Below, piece by piece: positions 47,711 to 59,796 of a DNA stretch of 64,000 nucleotides. The notes beneath the pieces are model-generated. The model made no database searches and was not told where the DNA came from. It saw only the letters and a list, made by a program, of their open reading frames with translations. Origin of the DNA: Affinundibacterium flavidum (GTDB lineage Bacteria > Pseudomonadota > Gammaproteobacteria > Burkholderiales > Burkholderiaceae_D); NCBI RefSeq assembly GCF_014284175.1, contig NZ_JACOGA010000018.1, positions 1-64,000 on the forward strand, written 5' to 3'. A program made the translations under genes and the position numbers. Each line of letters starts with the position of its first letter. Positions within the stretch are counted from its first letter, which is position 1.

Positions 47711-47944
47711 AGATAGCGCACGCAATGTAGAGATAAAGCTGAGGATTTTACTTGCAATTTCGGTATCGAAGCAGATTCTACTTAGATATTCTCTTCATAA
47801 ACTCATATTGAGCTTATGTAGTCCTTATCGTGCAATACAGTCCGCACTAGCAATTTTTGATAAAGCACCGAATTGCGGGCTTTTTCCCGTTCTGCTTCTG
47901 ACTTCGTTTTAAATTCTTTCGTTGATAATTCAAGCTACATAAAT

Positions 47945-47979: not shown

Positions 47980-48010
47980 GATTTGGAACTACTCAACCAT
48001 GAGGTGTGCA

Positions 48011-51000
48011 ATGAATGACAATCAAATGATACTTAACCGACTCTCAATGGGCGCAATGGCGATTGACGACCATCACAATGAGGCGTTCGATTTGGTCAAT
48101 GATGACAGTCTTGCCTCGCACGCACGGATAGATATTAAGGGAATCCGTGCAGCCATCGCCAAAGTTGAAGCTGCCGAGGCGCAGATAGCACAGATAGAAG
48201 ATACAAACAGACCCGCAACGACGATAGCGGATTCTGTTGAGGACTTAGCCCCGACGGAAATTCAAGAAATAGCCAGTGCAGAAGAGCACAATTTACTCAA
48301 GCAAGAAGCCAAGTTTCAAGCTGGATTGCGTTTCAAGAACGAACAAAATGCAAAAGATTTAGTGATAGAACAAATCAAAATTGACACTCAGCTTAATTTC
48401 AAAGCGAAAGTGGATGCAGAACAACTCGCGGTTGAAGCAGAAAATGCCAAACAATGGGCTGCGGAACGTGCCGCTGCATCTTATGCCGCCAAACAGGAAG
48501 CTATAGAACGTGCCAGAGTCGATGCACGCATTGCCGAACAAGCCAGAGAACGTGAACGTCAAGACCGCGAAGCCCGTTTGAATGCCGAACGTCTGGCAAA
48601 GGTGCGTAATGAATCGCAACAAATCAATCGTGAACGCGATCAAGCAGAAGCAATCGCCCTCGAAGTGTCTTTAAGCCGTACTCCACTAGAAATCAGAGCG
48701 CGCGAAGAAGCACGTGGACGCGCCGTTTTAGAGCGCGAATATGAAGCGATCGCTCAAGCACGCGTTGATTCCGAAAAGCGTGCTGCCGATGCGATTCAAC
48801 TTCGCTTACAAGCCGAAGAAGCCTTGTTAGCCGCAGCAAACCGTCGTGAACAAGCTGAAAAAATTGCAGCAGAAGCAGCGTTGGCACGCAGTGAAGCCGA
48901 AGAAAAAATTCGCTATGCGACCGAATCACGGATAGAAGCAGAAAAGGAATTGCAATCAAAAGCCTTAATGCGGGTTGAAACAGAACAATATGCAGATGCC
49001 AATGCACGAGCCCGTTTAGAGGCGGAAGAACAAGCTAACGAAGAGGCAAAACGTCGCCGCCAAACGGAGTTAGAAGCCGCACAAATGGCAAGACAACGTC
49101 GCGAAGAAGAAGAACGCGCTGAAAAATACGCGAAAGAAAAAGCCACATTGGAACGTGAAGCAGTTCAACTCGCCAAAGAAAAAGCGGATGCAGAGCAGAA
49201 AGCACTCGCTGCCATTGCGATGCAAACCGAATATCTCAAACGTGCTAATCAAGCAGCGAACTCTAAGGCGAAAAGCGTCATTGAATTAGCTAAAGCAGAA
49301 AAATTGCGCGCAGAAGCAGAACAGCGCGCTGCCAATGCGATTCAAGCTAAAGTCTTAGTCGAGAAAAAAGTCACAGAAGAAGCGGAGACTATCGCGAAGG
49401 TAGAAGAAACGCAGGTCGAAGTTTTGAATATGAAGCATCAAGCGCAACAGGCAATCCGTATTGCGCAAGAAACAAAGGTAGTCGCCGAAAAAATTGCGCT
49501 GGAAAATACAGTCGAAAATGTGAAATTGGGCCAGCAATTAGCGATGATTGCGATTCAAAAAAATCAAGATACGCAAGCTCTACTGGAAACACAGCAAGCA
49601 CGCGTTGATGCTGAAGGTAGAGCACTTGAATTGATTCAAGAAAAGTTAATGCTTGAAAAGCGTCGTGCAGAATCTGCAGAAAAACTCTTATTGGCGTCGC
49701 AAGAAAAACTCGCCAGCGAGAAAGATGCAGAACAAGCTGCCGTGGCAAGATTAAAAGCCGAAGAGGAAGCCATTGCATTAGCTGCGCAAAAAGAAGAGTT
49801 AGAGCGCCAACAGCAACAAGCTTTAGAAGCAAGTACTGAAGCTGAACGTCAAGCCATCGAGCAGGCGCAAGTACAAGCAGAATTGCAATGCAAGGCCGCA
49901 GCCTTGACACTATTGAAAGCGCGTCAAGTCGTCGAAATGACTAAGGCGGAACAATTGCGTTTAGAAGCAGAACGCAATGCAGCCTTAGCGAATCAAGAAA
50001 AATTAGAAGCAGAACGTCAAGCCGCAGAGCAAGTGTTAGCGCGCGCAAAAGCAGACCGTGAGCACGCGCAGATGCTGTTCGCTCGTCAAGAAAAAGAAAA
50101 AGAATCGAAGCTCGCCCGCCAGCAATTGCTGCAAGCCGAGCAACTACGCCTGCAGAAAATGACTGAGCACGCCGAATTACAAAGGCAAACTGCGACAGTT
50201 GCTAAATCCAAAGCGACTGAGGCGGTCGAATTGACTAAATTGATGCGTCAACGCGAGCAAGAAGAATTGCGTAAATTGGCGTTGATCGAAGAGAAAAAAG
50301 CTGTAGAGAAAAAAATGATCGCAGAGATCGCGGCGAAATCTGAAGCAGAACAAAATGAAGTTCGCTTAAATCAAGAGCGTTTAGAATCTGAACAAAAAAT
50401 GCGTCAGCTCGCTGAAGAAAAGGCAGTCGCTGAGCAAGCATTGATCGCACAAAATCAAGCAAAAATTCAACTCGAACAACAGATAAAAGAGGCGACAGAA
50501 TTGCGTGCTAAACGCGCATACGAGTTGACAGAAATTGAAAAAACAAAATTACAAGCGCAACATACAGCCTTAAAATCCCTGGAAGAAATCACTGCTTTAG
50601 AACTGCAACAAAAAGAAGCCGCTCAACAAGAAGCGCAATTAAAACAGCAACGCCTGGAACAAGAGCGTTTGAGCGCCGCAGATACAGAAGAAAAACTGGC
50701 ATTAGAAAAACAAAATTCAATCTTAGTTGAAGAGCGTGCGCGGATCGAATCAGAAGCGAAGCGCCTGGAGCAAGAGAAACTACAAGAAGAACAAGAGTTG
50801 CACGCCAAAGCAAAAGCCTATGCCGACTTGCAGGATCATGCACGCCAAGTGCTCATTCAAAAGAAACAGCGCATCGCAGAGTTAGAAAAAGTAGCACAAG
50901 ATCGCTGTGCTGCCGATCAAGCATTGTTGTCAACAACCAATGAGAAAATCAGTTTAGAACAAACAACACTGCAAACCTTGTGCGAACAACAAAGCCTTGA

Positions 51001-53104
51001 ACAACAAGCTTTGCGTAATGCCACGATCAACGAGGAAAAAACACAACAGGCAAAACGAGATGCAGAATTTGCTTTAAGTAAAGAGTTGGCATTGCATGAA
51101 GCACTCGCTGCCAATGCCGACGCACAACATCTTTTCGCAAGCTTCATGCAAGAGCGTGTAGAGCAAGAATTGAACTTGCATCGATTGCACGAAGAACGCA
51201 TAGAAAAAGAAAAAGAAGCTTTGAGCGCATTAGCCTTTTCTCAAACCGCAGAAAAAAATGCGCTAGACGAGGCAACAAAGTTAATCGCGACCGAAGAAGA
51301 AAAAATGCACCTGGCAATCCAACGCCAAAAATTAGATGAACAAGCCCGCATTGAACTTGAAAAACTTAATCTTGAAGAAGCGAGCTATTTGACCTTGGCT
51401 GAAAAAGAAGCCTGTGCACGTCAGCAAGCCAGTGCGTCTTTGGAGCAAAAAAATCAATCCTTGATCAACTCAATTGCGGTCGCAGAGGAATCCTCTCGCG
51501 TCGAAGCCCAACTCAACGCCGCCATACAACAAAAAATCGAAGACGAACAACGTGCCATGTTCGCCTTAAACGAGAGATTGCGTATTGAATCGATGTTGGC
51601 GGAAACTGAACGCCAACGTGCAGAAGATGAAGTGTTGGCAGCTGAGATCACGCAAGCCAAATTTGCCACAGAAAACGCATTATTGGCCAGTTCACGCGAA
51701 CATACAGCGGCTCAAAAGACGGCACTCAGCTTGGTTGAGGCTAGATTAGCCCAGTCACAAGAACTGCAACAATATGAAGAACAAAGAATCGCCTTTGAAA
51801 CGCAGGAGTTGCAGTTGCTGCAGCAAAAAGCGATCGCCGAAAAATATCTCGCCGATGAGACGCAAAAACGCATAGTCGCAGAGCAAGCCTATTTGCAAGA
51901 ATGCGAAAGTCGCGTGATGGCCGAACAAGAAGCGAGAATTGCAATTCAAAATCGTTTTGCTGCCGAAAATGAAGCCAGAGTACTGGCTGAACAGCAAACA
52001 CAATTGGAATATGAATTAACCGCAACTGCACAGACCCTTGCCAACCAACTGTTGAGCCTGCAACAGGAACAAATGACCCGTTTGGAATTGGAAACTGCCG
52101 CAACGACTAAGGCACAAGAACAATTATTGGTAGAGCAAGAATTGGCCGCCTTACATCAATCCACTTTGTTAGATATTGAAATGAAGTTGGAAGCCGAGAC
52201 TTTAATTTTGGCCGAATCTAAACGCCGTGCTGATTTAGAACATCAGGCTTTGGTGCAGGCGCAAGAGCGTTTGGCCGCAGAACGTCAGGCGGCAACGATT
52301 GAACAACAAAAATTTGAAACAGAATTAGCGTTGACGCTAGCGATTAGTGCAAAAGCAGAACAAGATGATTTGCAGTCCAATGCAAATCAACAAAACCGTA
52401 TTCAGCAAGAGCAATTGGCAGATATGGAAAGCGACAATGTGGAAGTAGAAAAGCATATCGCTGCATTGTTAGCTGAACAAATCGTGGAAGCGCAACATGT
52501 ACGTCAAATGAATGCAGAGCGTTTGGAGCGTGAACAGCAAGCTCAAAAATTAATGCAAGAGCGTTTGCAACAAGAACAAAATGCCTTGGCTGTGGCAAAT
52601 GCAAAGTGCGCAGAAGAACAAGCCTTGCTAGAAAAATCAGCAGCACTCACGGCAAAATTGCAACACGAAGTAGAAATGCACAAAGAGATTCAAAAGGAAA
52701 ATTCTATCGCCTTACAACAGCAAATAGAAGCTGAAAAACGCGCCGCTGAAGAGTTGACTAAACAATTATTAGATCGTCTAACGCTAGAGCAGGGCAGTCA
52801 TCAACAATGGTGCAATCGTGCAAAAGAAGTGCTGCAAGCATCACCCGTACCTGTTCCTTTGAAAGCTTTAACAATTTTAAAGAAAAACCGTTCATTACGC
52901 TCACCAGTTTTGTTTAGCGTACTAATGAGTATTGGCATGGTTGGTGCAGCAAGTTGGGGTATGTTGCAAGCACAAGCAAGCAATATTGCGAGCACTGGTT
53001 TAGTTGCACAAAAATCGACTCCACAAAAAGTCGCATCAGTCCAGCAAGTGAACAGTGTTCAAAACAATATGCGTATGACTTATCAGTTGGGGAACAAGAA
53101 CTAG
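48011..53104 (+). CDS. Giant coiled-coil protein with C-terminal membrane anchor
   Basis: 1,697 residues. The start at 48011 follows GAGGTG; in-frame ATGs at 47999 and 47873 lack a site. After an unusual ~90-residue head, the body is one long helix-forming run of Ala, Glu, Gln, Lys, Arg and Leu. Between Gly536 and Gly1595 I see no Gly or Pro. A 14-residue unit recurs in register, for example RLEAEEQANEEAKR and RAEAEQRAANAIQA: Arg/Lys at 1, small or hydrophobic at 4, 8 and 11, Glu at 5. That is two heptads with a charged first core position. One membrane segment lies at about 1632-1653 after basic LKKNRSLRS, predicting a cytoplasmic rod and a periplasmic 44-residue tail. I recognise no family; function unknown. 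Confidence 0.85.
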   Translation: MNDNQMILNRLSMGAMAIDDHHNEAFDLVNDDSLASHARIDIKGIRAAIAKVEAAEAQIAQIEDTNRPATTIADSVEDLAPTEIQEIASAEEHNLLKQEAKFQAGLRFKNEQNAKDLVIEQIKIDTQLNFKAKVDAEQLAVEAENAKQWAAERAAASYAAKQEAIERARVDARIAEQARERERQDREARLNAERLAKVRNESQQINRERDQAEAIALEVSLSRTPLEIRAREEARGRAVLEREYEAIAQARVDSEKRAADAIQLRLQAEEALLAAANRREQAEKIAAEAALARSEAEEKIRYATESRIEAEKELQSKALMRVETEQYADANARARLEAEEQANEEAKRRRQTELEAAQMARQRREEEERAEKYAKEKATLEREAVQLAKEKADAEQKALAAIAMQTEYLKRANQAANSKAKSVIELAKAEKLRAEAEQRAANAIQAKVLVEKKVTEEAETIAKVEETQVEVLNMKHQAQQAIRIAQETKVVAEKIALENTVENVKLGQQLAMIAIQKNQDTQALLETQQARVDAEGRALELIQEKLMLEKRRAESAEKLLLASQEKLASEKDAEQAAVARLKAEEEAIALAAQKEELERQQQQALEASTEAERQAIEQAQVQAELQCKAAALTLLKARQVVEMTKAEQLRLEAERNAALANQEKLEAERQAAEQVLARAKADREHAQMLFARQEKEKESKLARQQLLQAEQLRLQKMTEHAELQRQTATVAKSKATEAVELTKLMRQREQEELRKLALIEEKKAVEKKMIAEIAAKSEAEQNEVRLNQERLESEQKMRQLAEEKAVAEQALIAQNQAKIQLEQQIKEATELRAKRAYELTEIEKTKLQAQHTALKSLEEITALELQQKEAAQQEAQLKQQRLEQERLSAADTEEKLALEKQNSILVEERARIESEAKRLEQEKLQEEQELHAKAKAYADLQDHARQVLIQKKQRIAELEKVAQDRCAADQALLSTTNEKISLEQTTLQTLCEQQSLEQQALRNATINEEKTQQAKRDAEFALSKELALHEALAANADAQHLFASFMQERVEQELNLHRLHEERIEKEKEALSALAFSQTAEKNALDEATKLIATEEEKMHLAIQRQKLDEQARIELEKLNLEEASYLTLAEKEACARQQASASLEQKNQSLINSIAVAEESSRVEAQLNAAIQQKIEDEQRAMFALNERLRIESMLAETERQRAEDEVLAAEITQAKFATENALLASSREHTAAQKTALSLVEARLAQSQELQQYEEQRIAFETQELQLLQQKAIAEKYLADETQKRIVAEQAYLQECESRVMAEQEARIAIQNRFAAENEARVLAEQQTQLEYELTATAQTLANQLLSLQQEQMTRLELETAATTKAQEQLLVEQELAALHQSTLLDIEMKLEAETLILAESKRRADLEHQALVQAQERLAAERQAATIEQQKFETELALTLAISAKAEQDDLQSNANQQNRIQQEQLADMESDNVEVEKHIAALLAEQIVEAQHVRQMNAERLEREQQAQKLMQERLQQEQNALAVANAKCAEEQALLEKSAALTAKLQHEVEMHKEIQKENSIALQQQIEAEKRAAEELTKQLLDRLTLEQGSHQQWCNRAKEVLQASPVPVPLKALTILKKNRSLRSPVLFSVLMSIGMVGAASWGMLQAQASNIASTGLVAQKSTPQKVASVQQVNSVQNNMRMTYQLGNKN

Positions 53105-53151: not shown

Positions 53152-53838
53152 TTACAATTTTTTCGTAAGAATCATTTGCTGTCCTTCTCGTACCATACTT
53201 ACTCGTTTAAGAAATGACATTCCAAGTAAGCAGATGCCGAGATCATTTTCTTGGACTGAGGCATCGACTTGAAATAATTCTATGTCGCCGATTTTGATGG
53301 AATCGAGTCTGACCAAATAGGTTGGAACAATTCCATTAGCGGTACTGGTTCGAGAAGGTGTTCCTTTTTTGTAATCAATTCCCAAGCGTCGGGCATCGTT
53401 GGCCGACATCGATACAAAACTCGCACCTGTATCAACCAGCATACGAATATTACTACCGCCGTTGATTTTTCCTTCTGTGAAAAAATGCCCGTTTTCGCTA
53501 GCTTGTAAAGTGACGCTGCTATTCTTATTAGGTTCACTGCGGAGCACCGCATGTCCCAAAAACACCGTTTGCTTTTTCCCATCTACTTCAATGGTAGCGC
53601 TATTGCTATTCGTTGAAATTAGCTTACTGGTCGCGGTGATCATGCTTCCTACCGCATACATCTTGGGTAGCTTGTCGTCGACGACCAGCATGGCTTTGCC
53701 GTTGCTTAATGCGACCAAACTAAATTCACTCGCCTGAGCACCTTCTGATGATAGCAAATTGCCGAAAGACGCAAGACTGAACAGCAATACAGATCGAATA
53801 GTAGTTGCCGACAAAGTGTTGAATATTTTATCGTTCAT
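53152..53838 (-). CDS. Periplasmic retropepsin-like aspartic protease
   Basis: 228 residues. A signal peptide ends near residue 36 (...EGAQAS). The C-terminal half is a single-lobe clan AA protease: active site RMLVDTGASFVSMSANDARRLGI, flap region and LLGMSFLKRVSMVREG. It resembles the TIGR02281 family, which acts as a homodimer. The N-terminal ~90 residues are a small beta-rich domain (ALSNGKAMLVVDDKLPKMYAVGSMI) of unclear role. Convergent with the giant coiled-coil gene, 47 bp apart. Confidence 0.85.
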   Translation of the reverse strand: MNDKIFNTLSATTIRSVLLFSLASFGNLLSSEGAQASEFSLVALSNGKAMLVVDDKLPKMYAVGSMITATSKLISTNSNSATIEVDGKKQTVFLGHAVLRSEPNKNSSVTLQASENGHFFTEGKINGGSNIRMLVDTGASFVSMSANDARRLGIDYKKGTPSRTSTANGIVPTYLVRLDSIKIGDIELFQVDASVQENDLGICLLGMSFLKRVSMVREGQQMILTKKL

Positions 53839-55794: not shown

Positions 55795-58700
55795 ATGAAA
55801 TCTGATGCCAATATTTTGTACGGACAAGTACAGCCAGAATTAATTAAAGCGGAATGTTTAGCCGATCTGCTCGAAGCCACCATCCTAGCGTCTCCAGAAA
55901 AAATCGCGCTGTCCAGCGACAGCGAGCAAATCACTTATGCTGATCTTGGTGCGCGTGCCGATTTGGTAGCGAGTCACTTGATCAATGCAGGAATCAAACC
56001 AGGAGATATTCTGGGCTTATGGCTGCCGCGTGGAGTCGAACTGTTAGTGATGCAAGCGGGCATTGCCAAATCAGGTGCGGCCTGGTTGCCATTTGATGCG
56101 GAAGTGCCAGTCGATCGCATAGCGGTTTGTTTGGAAGACGCACAAGCGGTTGGCTTGATCACAGTCGAAGAATTCTTGCCGCAGCTTGAACAATTAACTC
56201 AGCCGATTTTTACTTCTGCAAGTCTATCTAGTGCTTTAGTGGGTGGGTTACAGAGACGTAGTGCCGTCAATGTAAATGATCCTGCCTATGTTATTTATAC
56301 ATCTGGTTCAACTGGTAAGCCAAAAGGCATCGTCATTAATCAAGGCAGTATTTGCCATTTTTTACGCAGTGAAAATAGCGTCTTAGGAATTACAGGTAAT
56401 GATCGCGTTTACCAGGGTTTTTCAGTGGCATTCGATATGTCATTTGAAGAAATCTGGATTAGTTACTTAGTCGGCGCAACTTTATGGATAGCGCCAAAAG
56501 AAGTTGCACTCGATCCTGATGCCTTGCCACGTGCGCTAATCGCCAATCAAATTACAGTGTTACATGCAGTGCCTACGCTGCTGGCCTTGTTCAGCATTGA
56601 CGTGCCTTGCCTGCGTTTGATTAATCTCGGTGGTGAGATGTGTCCGGCTAGTCTGGTGGATCGATGGGCGGTCAATGGTCGTCAAATGTTTAATACCTAT
56701 GGCCCGACTGAAGCAACGGTGTCTGCCAGTTTGGCACCATTGCATGCAGGTGAGCCAGTGACGATAGGTATTCCATTGCCGAATTATGGTTTGTTGGTGA
56801 TTGATCCTGAAGTTGATAAGGGCTTGCGTTTATTAGCACGTGGTGAGACAGGTGAGCTTTGTATTTTTGGACCGGGTGTTTCGGCGGGCTACCTTGGACG
56901 ACCTGATTTGACCGCAGAAAAATTCTTGGCCAATCCTTGGGCAAATGATCCTATTAACGGCAAAATTTATCGCACTGGTGATTTGGCCAAAATCGGCGAA
57001 GATGGCACGGTGCAATGTCTGGGACGTGCTGATGATCAAGTAAAGATACGCGGTTTTCGAGTCGAGTTGGGCGAAATCGAAGCGGTGTTAGCACAGCAAA
57101 ATGGTGTGGGTACGGTCGCAGTGATTTTGCGTTCAGAGCAGGGTATCGATCAATTGATTGCCTTCATCGTTCGTGAAATTGGTGCTGATCTGGAAGCGGT
57201 CAACGGCAGCAACTTGCGTCAAGCATTGGCGCAAAGTTTGCCAGCCTACATGGTGCCAACCCGCTATGAATTTTTAGAAGAAATGCCACGCCTAAGTTCA
57301 GGCAAAATTGATCGTAAGACTTTGAAAGCACAGGAGCTAGCGGTACAGGCGTCATCGTCGGAAAGTGATTTGCCAGAAACCGAAGCGGAGTCTTGCTTGT
57401 TTGAGGCTATGACGCGCTTATTCCCTGGTCAGGCAATTCGTCGTGACGCTGATTTTTTTACTGATCTCGGCGGACACTCATTAATGGCGGCACGCTTAGT
57501 GTCATCCTTGCGCTTGGATGCCCGCTTTGCCTACTTTAAAATCAGTGATATCTACCAACAACGCAGATTGGGGCAAATCGCCACCGTGATGCAAGAAGGT
57601 TTGATTAAAGCAACGGACCAAACTCAAGCCGCCGAATCATGGGAGCCACCATCGTCGGTCAAACGTTGGGTATGTGGCCTTGCGCAAGCGACGATGATAC
57701 CGTGTCTGGTTGCCTTCCGTATGCTGCAATGGTTGACGCCATTTTTTGCCTATCACTTCTTTACTGGTGACAGCGAAGATTCGATTCCACGTGCGGTAGC
57801 GCTTTCACTCGGATGTTTTTTGTTGGTGACTGTTGCCGAATTCTTTCTGGCGATTGGCGCGAAGTGGTTGATACTCGGGCGCTTAACGCCGGGCAAATAT
57901 CCTTTGTGGGGAATGACTTATTTCCGTTGGTGGCTAGTTGACAGAGTGATTGAAGCTGCGCCTGCGTATATGCTCAGCGGTTCATCGATTTACACCTGGT
58001 GGTTAAGAGCATTGGGTGCAAAAATTGGTGATGAGGTATTGATTGGTTCTATCACTTTACGTGCCGCTGATCTATTGAAAATTGAAGATGGCGTCAGCAT
58101 AGGTAATGCCTGTAATTTTGAAAACGCGCGCGTCGAAAAAGGCTACTTACATTTAGGCCGAATTGATATCGGTGCAAATGCCTACGTTGGTTCGTATGCT
58201 GTCGTTGAGGGCGGTACTTGTATCGAGCAGCAGGCACATCTGGCCGGGCAATCTTGTTTGGTGGATGGGCAAAAGATCCCAGAAAATCGCATGTGGGAAG
58301 GCTCTCCAGCGCGTGATGTCGGCATGTTTGATCCTCAAGCTTTACCGCCGCGCCCAGTGGTCAGTCGCCTGCGCCAAACCGGTGAAGCAATGTTTTTTAT
58401 CTTGGGCAGCTTGAGTATTTCTGCCTTGTTTTTCCTGCCTGTTTTCCCGACGTTTATTCTGATTGATTGGTTAGATACTTTGGAGTTGTTACCGAGTACG
58501 CAGAATGCAGACGTGGCTTTGCAGTTAAGCGAATATTTCGTTTTTGCATTTCCGGCAACCGCAGTGTTGATCGTTTGTACGGCGATCTTGTCGGCAGGAA
58601 TACGTTGGGGATTGCTACCGAAAATGGTACCAGGACGTTATGCCGTCCACAGTAACGTGTACTGTGGAAAATGGCTTGTGAATCAAATTCAGGAATCAAG

Positions 58701-59796
58701 TCTGAATGTCTTGCACGGCGTCTACGCAACGATTTATTCGCCATTTTGGTACCGCATGTTGGGTGCGAAAGTCGGTAAGGGGGCAGAAGTTTCTACTGCC
58801 CTTGGCGTGGTGCCAGATATGCTCACTTTGGGTGACGAATGCTTTATCGCCGATGCAGTCATGCTAGGAGATGAAGAGATAGATCAAGGCTGGATGTCGG
58901 TGCAAGCGACTGAAGTGTCACGCCGTAGTTTTGTTGGCAATGGTGCGTATATTCCTGATGGAACTGTGATCCCGGAAAACGTCTTGATTGGCGTCCATAC
59001 AAGTGCGCCAGCGAATGGCGCAATGCGTAGCGGCAATACGTGGATAGGTTCACCAGCCATGAATTTACCAGCGCGTGAAGAAGTCAAAGGCTTTGCCGAA
59101 AACCTGACCTTTAAGCCGTCCTTATGGCGACGCATCGCGCGCGGCCTAATCGAAGCATTCCGCATCATCGCACCACATGCATTGGTGATCGCGATTGGTT
59201 ATACGATTGTGCTGGATCTGATGCCGCTAGCGGCAGAAGAACGTTGGTTAGAAGTTCTGTACTACCTGGTCATTTCTGGCTTGTCGTATGGCGCAGGTTG
59301 CTTCGTATTTATCTTCTTGGCGAAATGGATTTTGATTGGTCGTTACAAGAAAAGCAGTCATCCTATGTGGACTTGGTTTGTCTGGTCATCAGAAGCGATT
59401 ACCAATCTTTACGAAGGTATCGCTGTTCCAAACTTTATGCGCTATCTGAAAGGTACGCCTTGGTTACCTCTGGCCTTCAATTTGTTAGGTGCCAAAATCG
59501 GTAAGGGTGTGTATTTGGATACCACCGACATCACCGAATTCGATTGCGTGACTATAGGTGCGTATAGCGAAATCAATGCGGCGGCGTGTCCGCAAACGCA
59601 TTTGTTTGAAGATCGCGTCATGAAAGTTGATCACGTGCTGATCGGTGAACGTGTGTACCTCGGTCCGCGCAGCTTTGTTCTCTATAGCGCAGTGGTTGGT
59701 GACGATGCCAAACTAGGCGCATTAACGTTGGTAATGAAGGGGGAATTTATTCCGGCGAACTCGAGTTGGCGCGGTTGTCCGGCCTCAGTTGCTTGA
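55795..59796 (+). CDS. Pls/PosA-type membrane NRPS-like synthetase
   Basis: 1,333 residues. The adenylation domain (about 25-520) shows YTSGSTGKPKG, FDMSFEEIW, NTYGPTEAT, GETGELCIFGPGVSAGYLG, YRTGDLAKI and the GKIDR lysine. The thiolation domain (about 535-610) carries Ser562 in GGHSLMAARL. The rest alternates membrane helices with three soluble hexapeptide-repeat modules (about 730-840, 970-1080 and 1200-1330). This is the layout of epsilon-poly-lysine synthetase Pls (about 1,319 residues), where the soluble modules join amino acids. There is no condensation or thioesterase domain. The pocket has Asp214, Met215 and Glu218; substrate unknown. A phosphopantetheinyl transferase gene follows. 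Confidence 0.9.
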   Translation: MKSDANILYGQVQPELIKAECLADLLEATILASPEKIALSSDSEQITYADLGARADLVASHLINAGIKPGDILGLWLPRGVELLVMQAGIAKSGAAWLPFDAEVPVDRIAVCLEDAQAVGLITVEEFLPQLEQLTQPIFTSASLSSALVGGLQRRSAVNVNDPAYVIYTSGSTGKPKGIVINQGSICHFLRSENSVLGITGNDRVYQGFSVAFDMSFEEIWISYLVGATLWIAPKEVALDPDALPRALIANQITVLHAVPTLLALFSIDVPCLRLINLGGEMCPASLVDRWAVNGRQMFNTYGPTEATVSASLAPLHAGEPVTIGIPLPNYGLLVIDPEVDKGLRLLARGETGELCIFGPGVSAGYLGRPDLTAEKFLANPWANDPINGKIYRTGDLAKIGEDGTVQCLGRADDQVKIRGFRVELGEIEAVLAQQNGVGTVAVILRSEQGIDQLIAFIVREIGADLEAVNGSNLRQALAQSLPAYMVPTRYEFLEEMPRLSSGKIDRKTLKAQELAVQASSSESDLPETEAESCLFEAMTRLFPGQAIRRDADFFTDLGGHSLMAARLVSSLRLDARFAYFKISDIYQQRRLGQIATVMQEGLIKATDQTQAAESWEPPSSVKRWVCGLAQATMIPCLVAFRMLQWLTPFFAYHFFTGDSEDSIPRAVALSLGCFLLVTVAEFFLAIGAKWLILGRLTPGKYPLWGMTYFRWWLVDRVIEAAPAYMLSGSSIYTWWLRALGAKIGDEVLIGSITLRAADLLKIEDGVSIGNACNFENARVEKGYLHLGRIDIGANAYVGSYAVVEGGTCIEQQAHLAGQSCLVDGQKIPENRMWEGSPARDVGMFDPQALPPRPVVSRLRQTGEAMFFILGSLSISALFFLPVFPTFILIDWLDTLELLPSTQNADVALQLSEYFVFAFPATAVLIVCTAILSAGIRWGLLPKMVPGRYAVHSNVYCGKWLVNQIQESSLNVLHGVYATIYSPFWYRMLGAKVGKGAEVSTALGVVPDMLTLGDECFIADAVMLGDEEIDQGWMSVQATEVSRRSFVGNGAYIPDGTVIPENVLIGVHTSAPANGAMRSGNTWIGSPAMNLPAREEVKGFAENLTFKPSLWRRIARGLIEAFRIIAPHALVIAIGYTIVLDLMPLAAEERWLEVLYYLVISGLSYGAGCFVFIFLAKWILIGRYKKSSHPMWTWFVWSSEAITNLYEGIAVPNFMRYLKGTPWLPLAFNLLGAKIGKGVYLDTTDITEFDCVTIGAYSEINAAACPQTHLFEDRVMKVDHVLIGERVYLGPRSFVLYSAVVGDDAKLGALTLVMKGEFIPANSSWRGCPASVA

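Follow-up and report, generated by a model that had tools for sequence, protein, structure and literature searches.

The window, by which we mean the whole stretch of 64,000 nucleotides analyzed here, contains an open reading frame (ORF) at 48011..53104 on the + strand, exactly where the first-pass annotation had placed it: the ATG starts at 48011, the stop codon ends at 53104, and the product is 1,697 aa long. The assignment of this ORF as a gene for a tail-anchored coiled-coil rod is based on the frame itself and on the dN/dS values of close family pairs (see below), and a Shine-Dalgarno-like GAGG (48001..48004, +) lies 6 nt 5′ of the ATG. Judging from its sequence, the encoded protein belongs to an undescribed family of predicted tail-anchored rods and is among its long forms. 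From the N-terminus to the C-terminus, a short head leads into a heptad coiled coil of ~1,450 residues, which is followed by a basic patch, a single segment predicted to lie in the membrane, and a short tail. Its composition is extreme, with Ala, Glu, Gln, and Leu accounting for 56% of the residues. Glycine is found at position 536 and then at 1595, and proline at 225 and then at 1612, leaving residues 537–1594 free of both, as had been read from the translation.

Several elements of this layout could be delimited precisely, all on the + strand. The head starts with a short helix (residues 3–12; 48017..48046), which is predicted by AlphaFold and kept within the genus with the consensus MDxNQxLLNRLSLG, followed by a motif of conserved columns, RIDxKGIRxAIAxVEA (residues 39–55; 48125..48175), in which R39, I40, D41, G44, I45, A48, I49, A50, and E53 are invariant in 16 rows and of which a related form occurs in other genera. 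The rod proper (residues 144–1594; 48440..52792) is defined as a heptad coiled coil with a 14-residue modulation by sequence periodicity and a partial AlphaFold model. It is followed by a juxtamembrane block (52793..52870), in which W1600 and L1608 do not vary among 16 rows and P1612 hardly does. The predicted transmembrane segment (residues 1633–1651; 52907..52963), preceded by a K/R-rich stretch, is the most hydrophobic 19-mer of the protein, with a mean Kyte-Doolittle value of 1.70 as compared to 0.76 for the best 19-mer before residue 1600, which bears out the proposal of a single C-terminal hydrophobic segment located between a basic patch and a short tail. Because the basic patch precedes the membrane segment, the tail (residues 1652–1697; 52964..53101) is predicted to be periplasmic. 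The tail contains a conserved motif, MRMTYQL (family form LxMSYxL; residues 1687–1693; 53069..53089), which is internal; the very end, GNKN in the window protein, varies among members.

AlphaFold was run on two single-chain segments, residues 1–300 and 1540–1697. The first model consists of the short helix 3–12, a helix spanning residues 42–64, and a single helix covering residues 85–299, with block pLDDT values of 86–98 for residues 101 to 290. In the second, a helix extends over residues 1541–1610 and stops just before the membrane region, which is modeled at a pLDDT of about 50–56, and no structure is predicted for the tail.

The periodicity of the rod supports the description of a giant coiled coil given in the first-pass annotation and qualifies that of its repeat unit. 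Position-specific composition yields z scores of 32.5, 29.8, 19.0, and 18.2 at periods 7, 14, 21, and 28, respectively, and no higher than 4.1 at all remaining periods from 5 to 30; therefore, the heptad is the basic unit, with a two-heptad modulation superimposed on it. The suggested autocorrelation check did not abolish the 14-residue signal: identity peaks at lags 14, 28, 42, and 56 (z of 9.7, 9.3, 10.7, and 7.3, respectively; 200 shuffles), and the phase information at period 14 amounts to 3.86 bits versus 1.36 ± 0.11 in 500 shuffles. At the DNA level, the autocorrelation of the gene peaks at 126, 84, and 42 bp, the last being the periodicity that had been predicted. The claim of a 14-residue unit in constant register was only partly sustained. 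Across 33 leave-out windows of 84 residues each, the best fit was obtained at a shift of 0 or 7 in 32, and at a shift of 6 in one (start 1110); shift 0 is best in 9 of the 10 windows starting at 144–522 and in all 5 at 1152–1320, shift 7 in all 8 at 564–858 and all 4 at 1362–1488, and the shifts are mixed for starts 900–1068, with poor fits (score ≤ 0) at 942, 984, and 1068. Thus, the heptad phase of the rod is constant and the 14-residue phase is not, slipping by 7 between blocks. When jumps were penalized by 12 bits, a Viterbi fit preferred a single unbroken 14-residue block, and therefore these slips are modest.

The positions of charged residues within the repeat are maintained across the genus. 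Between residues 144 and 1470, 291 of the 1,327 columns are near-invariant, i.e., identical in at least 26 of 28 aligned genus members. The near-invariant Glu residues are concentrated at one heptad position (54 of 78) and the near-invariant Arg/Lys residues at another (42 of 55), with a near-invariant Glu four residues after 27 of the 55 Arg/Lys. The pattern originally noticed in a single sequence, Arg/Lys at position 1 and Glu at position 5, has therefore been conserved by evolution.

No characterized family was recovered for the window protein in profile databases: there were no matches in Pfam and NCBIfam (to E of 0.1) or in PHROGs (to 0.001), none of the 16 genus members examined matched a Pfam family, and five proteins from other genera (one of them partial) matched no NCBIfam family. 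Neither the window protein nor the full-length profile (A1) matched any PDB chain. In the PDB, the head profile (A6) had four matches, all to designed antiparallel coiled coils and the best at 4.7e-6 across 33 positions, which we attribute to a general likeness among coiled coils. A phage tape-measure protein was considered and rejected, given the lack of PHROGs matches and the neighbors, which by eye are chromosomal housekeeping genes. The open-licence literature yielded no description of such a protein under Undibacterium or Oxalobacteraceae coiled coils, membrane-anchored coiled-coil-rich proteins, or 14-residue repeats. This is a new protein family within the broad kind of structural coiled-coil proteins. 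The earlier remark that no family with this layout is known accordingly holds for Pfam, NCBIfam, PHROGs, and the PDB, but not for the layout as such, which is known from golgins and KASH proteins (discussed below).

Within the genus of this freshwater bacterium, the gene is nearly universal. Matches without internal stops are present in 34 of 36 Undibacterium genomes (the source genome included), and the two genomes without a match have completeness values of 65% and 89%. Among the named genomes scanned, 31 loci were found: 24 are labeled Undibacterium, and the remaining 7 belong to metagenome bins labeled Oxalobacteraceae, Burkholderiaceae, or Burkholderiales. Of the 36 loci extracted, 8 were left out before alignment (7 because they were fragments or truncated genes, and one because it came from another family). 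Among the 28 full-length members aligned, the rod segment corresponding to residues 144–1470 (48440..52420) is exactly 1,327 residues long in 26, the window protein included, and the other 25 equal-length members are 41–81% identical to it over this segment. The exceptions are L014 (1,282 residues; −45) and L026 (1,570; +243). MAFFT places no gaps within 144–1470 in these 26 of 28 rows, although under a lenient pairwise gap penalty small compensating gaps appear in 13 of 14 comparisons; therefore, what we claim is equal length rather than freedom from compensating indels. The head linkers and the tail vary, whereas the rod segment keeps its length. Conservation is uneven along the protein, the mean column identity being 0.78–0.79 at residues 151–300 versus 0.43–0.54 at 1351–1600. 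In L026, as well as in the incomplete L024, part of the rod is duplicated in tandem; the two internal copies are offset by 243 residues, which breaks the heptad register. The idea that the 14-residue unit could be proven by indels in multiples of 14 was abandoned, considering that the net length of the rod hardly changes inside 144–1470 and that the sole large duplication, of 243 residues, is not a multiple of 7.

The extreme composition might suggest a spurious low-complexity ORF, and in one genome (G014; L019:4346-8773) the rod gene stops early, after the position equivalent to residue 1471 of a 99% identical relative (L021), with no membrane segment or tail found within the fetched region, as could be expected of a decaying gene. 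However, the gene has its own putative promoter region and Shine-Dalgarno sequence and belongs to a family that extends across genera. Of ten pairs tested, seven had a usable overall dS, and in these seven close pairs dN/dS is 0.033–0.125. The rod gene is thus under strong purifying selection, which, along with the stop-free matches in the genus genomes, refutes the possibility of a spurious or decaying ORF and leaves it with virtually no chance of being correct.

Beyond the genus, 195 genomes were sampled from the taxonomic family, and 111 of them matched the full-length profile (E of 1e-8); these carriers fall into 23 of the 44 genera in the sample. Of the 22 genera with a match besides that of the window, 20 were inspected, with one region per genus. 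All 20 contain the head motif. Fifteen have a hydrophobic segment (mean hydropathy 1.46–2.43) located 47–118 residues from the end, and all 15 anchored representatives continue, by eye, with a variable linker and then an LxMSYxL-like tail peptide, the fifth position of which is aromatic in 12. The other five genera have a short form, with open frames of 767–824 aa lacking both the membrane segment and the tail peptide; therefore, anchoring is dispensable somewhere in the family. The marks of the family are the head motif, IxxAIxRVExEA, and the heptad rod, to which the anchored form adds the W block, the membrane segment, and the LxMSYxL-like tail, and the window protein fits this description. 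Open frames delimited from stop to stop around the full-length profile matches have lengths of 821–837 in 12 genomes of g162, 1,249–1,281 in 9 of g176, and 1,332–1,352 in 3 of g193 (two further g193 matches resemble fragments), a broad range of 1,044–1,744 in g177, and two classes, 767–811 and 1,094–1,111, plus one of 505, in g31. Rod lengths are thus mostly genus-specific, are not fixed across genera, and clearly differ within two genera.

Across the order, a 57-position head profile searched against 399 genomes detected four genus genomes and one weak match (E of 0.004). A wider head profile (24 rows) detected 31 of the 399 genomes, representing 13 of 158 genera; it missed the source genome, the subclade of which has altered that stretch, and picked up a carrier (G091) missed by the full-length profile. 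Eight regions were fetched from the matches to the wider profile. Two proteins from other families, of 1,139 (L170) and 1,193 aa (L175), combine a head motif and a rod with a hydrophobic segment near the C-terminus and a tail peptide of related sequence. In L177, the rod and the segment occur with neither the head nor the tail motif, L176, from the same taxonomic family as the window, has no C-terminal segment, L171 and L172 are cut at contig ends, and no ORF passing the composition filter was found in L173 and L174. At an unlinked locus (G000:C18:262058-264778; L157:7059-9782), the source genome also encodes another rod protein, a relative of 907 aa with a C-terminal hydrophobic segment, a short tail, and different end motifs, which has strong matches (E below 1e-90) in only 9 of the 36 genus genomes.

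The region upstream of the rod gene is also conserved. We compared 33 upstream regions, 18 from Undibacterium and 15 from anchored members in other genera, leaving out the five short forms. GATAAT, resembling a −10 box, was found 65–87 nt 5′ of the ATG in 24 of the 33 (searched from −55 to −95), and these 24 align with a near-fixed geometry: GAAWTR..TTTTCC..TTCTnCTC, ~26 nt, YGATAAT, 6 nt, TAAGAAnTTCCGG. The information content of the upstream part is 36.7 bits versus 7.9 ± 0.6 in shuffles, which ignore kinship, with 16 of the 24 rows coming from one genus. In the window, the upstream part of this putative promoter region reads GAATTGnGGG..TTTTTCCC..TTCTGCTTC (47871..47898, +), as recognized from the sequence and the fixed-spacing alignment, and GATAAT (47924..47929, +) lies 87 nt before the ATG; TTCCGG is absent. 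The region is kept while the gene neighbors differ between genera. Using a search pattern that represents one part of the genus (the promoters of the window and of G016 do not fit it), the downstream promoter part was located at the rod gene in 9 of 10 Undibacterium genomes, in eight with 0 mismatches and in one with 1. A shared regulon controlled through this element was rejected, as just three other sites were found, with 3 mismatches each, against four for the reversed-pattern control.

In many Undibacterium loci, the rod gene is preceded, by eye, by genes for lipoamide dehydrogenase (OdhL), a ZapE-like ATPase, a small secreted protein, and an opposite-strand aminotransferase. A two-component pair lies 3′ of it in 7 of 8 clustered Undibacterium loci, not including the window, in which a retropepsin-like gene and then a YajQ-like gene are located downstream. 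The former (53152-53838, −) encodes a retropepsin-like aspartyl protease (PF13975); it converges on the rod gene, and 47 nt separate the two. Further downstream, a large NRPS-like protein (55795-59796, +; by eye), in which membrane and acyltransferase-like repeats come after an adenylation domain, is adjoined by a phosphopantetheinyl-transferase-like gene (by eye). In other genera, a TPR protein and a YkuD L,D-transpeptidase are encoded 3′ of the rod gene on the same strand in L142, L143, L146, and L147 (in L142, both carry Cds6_C domains according to Pfam), and a hybrid sensor kinase gene precedes it in three genera (L142, L143, and L147). No constant neighbor was found among the Undibacterium and other-genus loci compared; therefore, the rod gene looks stand-alone.

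Some neighbors raise the prospect that the protein is a polar landmark for the flagellum or the chemotaxis array, working like TipN or HubP. In three of the 20 genera inspected (L137, L140, and L145; flhD confirmed by Pfam in L140 only), flhC/flhD are neighbors of the rod gene and lie on the opposite strand, and in one (L144) the rod gene is adjoined by an MCP gene, with cheZ another two ORFs away. In the sample of the taxonomic family, FlhC is encoded by 107 of the 111 carriers, the four without it being genomes under 90% complete; among good genomes it is present in 99 of 99 carriers versus 58 of 75 without a rod call, a comparison that is uncorrected for phylogeny and in which the full-length profile missed at least one carrier (G091). 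However, the three flhDC cases may represent one ancestral arrangement, and the loci of Undibacterium and of most other genera lack such neighbors. Nor is there a general FliA-type promoter: of 52 upstream regions scored with the FliA-type consensus, just L138 and L141, both short forms, stood out, at the 1% and 5% levels of shuffles, respectively. HubP/FimV and TipN resemble the rod protein in being large bacterial membrane proteins with cytoplasmic scaffolding parts. HubP is described as having a periplasmic LysM domain, acidic repeats, and TPR (PMC8789113), whereas no FimV core, LysM, or TPR model of Pfam or NCBIfam matches the window protein, and FimV (TIGR03505), a HubP-type protein, is encoded separately in the same genome, by a different open frame of 942 aa. 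The link of the family to motility is only suggestive, and we regard a landmark function as distinctly improbable.

The closest parallels in layout come from eukaryotes. The design of a tail-anchored rod that bridges a distance is known mainly from eukaryotic membranes, and the KASH proteins (nesprins, ANC-1) have a giant cytoplasmic part and a C-terminal membrane segment. In KASH proteins, a short conserved peptide with a conserved Tyr resides between the two membranes (PMC6527376), so that the resemblance to the rod family extends, in layout only, to the short conserved peptide beyond the membrane; unlike the window protein, with its internal motif and GNKN end, nesprins have spectrin repeats and a peptide that ends in PPPX and binds a SUN domain. 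In golgins, rod length is reported to be conserved more than sequence, and giantin has a C-terminal membrane segment (PMC5082667). The rod family shares with them, again in layout only, a very long coiled-coil rod kept in length and a giantin-type anchor. However, there is no detectable sequence relation (no Pfam or PDB match), the rod is bacterial, with no vesicles to tether, and, unlike golgins, it continues beyond the membrane into a conserved peptide.

With these parallels in mind, we propose, with moderate confidence, that the rod protein is a length-calibrated spacer or scaffold tethered to the membrane, with a mode of action similar to that of golgins or KASH proteins. From the observed anatomy, its conservation, and the selection acting on it, we infer the following steps. 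The rod would form a parallel homo-oligomer in the cytoplasm with a length of at most ~215 nm (1,456 residues × 0.148 nm); the tail peptide would dock on an envelope partner in the periplasm, fixing the position of the rod; and the conserved head, together with the first third of the rod, would bind a partner in the cytoplasm, at a defined distance from the anchor. An exact rod length combined with a drifting sequence argues for a spacer, being a mark of one according to PMC5082667. The identity is highest near the head, which suggests binding there and a spacer behind, and retention of the LxMSYxL-like peptide despite a variable linker is the pattern of a docking peptide. Together, the tail anchor and the conserved tail peptide suggest periplasmic docking, similar to that of KASH peptides (PMC6527376). 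The single continuous helix predicted for residues 85–299 and another for 1541–1610 lend the spacer or tether further, model-based support. Against it, we count that the short forms lack the membrane segment and tail, that rod length is not fixed across genera and clearly differs within two of them, that L014 and L026 differ within the genus, that small gaps arise under lenient pairwise alignment, that the 14-residue register slips by 7, and that the 243-residue duplication disrupts the heptad register, as well as the structureless tail, the low pLDDT in the membrane region, and the lack of a conserved neighbor pointing to a partner. The first-pass annotation had guessed at a scaffold, spacer, or filament at the envelope or the cell poles, which fits the evidence; the fixed rod length strengthens the spacer option, and for the poles the evidence consists of the flagellar-gene associations, which point weakly in that direction.

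The main rival to the spacer, followed by the polar or flagellar landmark, is a filament. Under this scenario, the protein would be intermediate filament (IF)-like, with rods lying side by side in register and forming a filament or sheet under the inner membrane that stiffens or shapes the cell in the manner of crescentin and other coiled-coil-rich proteins. To our knowledge, the crescentin design does not include a tail anchor with a conserved periplasmic peptide, and the rod protein is presumably longer than crescentin and bacterial coiled-coil-rich proteins. Crescentin, CfpA, Ccrp, FilP, and RsmP are described as bacterial proteins that are nearly all coiled coil, have no catalytic domain, and, as IF-like proteins, share little sequence (PMC3296230), so that the lack of a match says little against a protein of this kind. 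The rod protein resembles them in being a heptad coiled coil over most of its length with no enzyme domain matched, and differs in being tail-anchored, in having its own head and tail motifs, and in the absence of a sequence match, including among PDB chains for the window protein and the full-length profile. The lack of any net length change across the 1,327-residue segment, seen in 26 of 28 members, and the strict heptad pattern of Glu and Arg/Lys charges would suit in-register packing, but R(i)–E(i+4) pairs equally stabilize a single helix, and the divergence of the C-terminal third is not favored by packing. On balance, we consider a filament a serious possibility, though less likely than the spacer.

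The spacer reading may be extended to the order as a whole. More tentatively, and with a fairly low probability, the family could consist of order-wide KASH-like envelope linkers, in which a length-calibrated cytoplasmic rod, passing through the inner membrane with its tail and docked by the short periplasmic peptide on a wall or outer-membrane partner, would keep a structure in the cytoplasm at a distance, set by lineage, from one fixed site in the envelope. If the spacer reading is correct, these bacteria measure or bridge ~100–200 nm of cytoplasm by means of a tail-anchored rod. Rod lengths that are different but mostly set by genus, with some rods being anchorless, provide natural variants with which the question of spacer length can be addressed.
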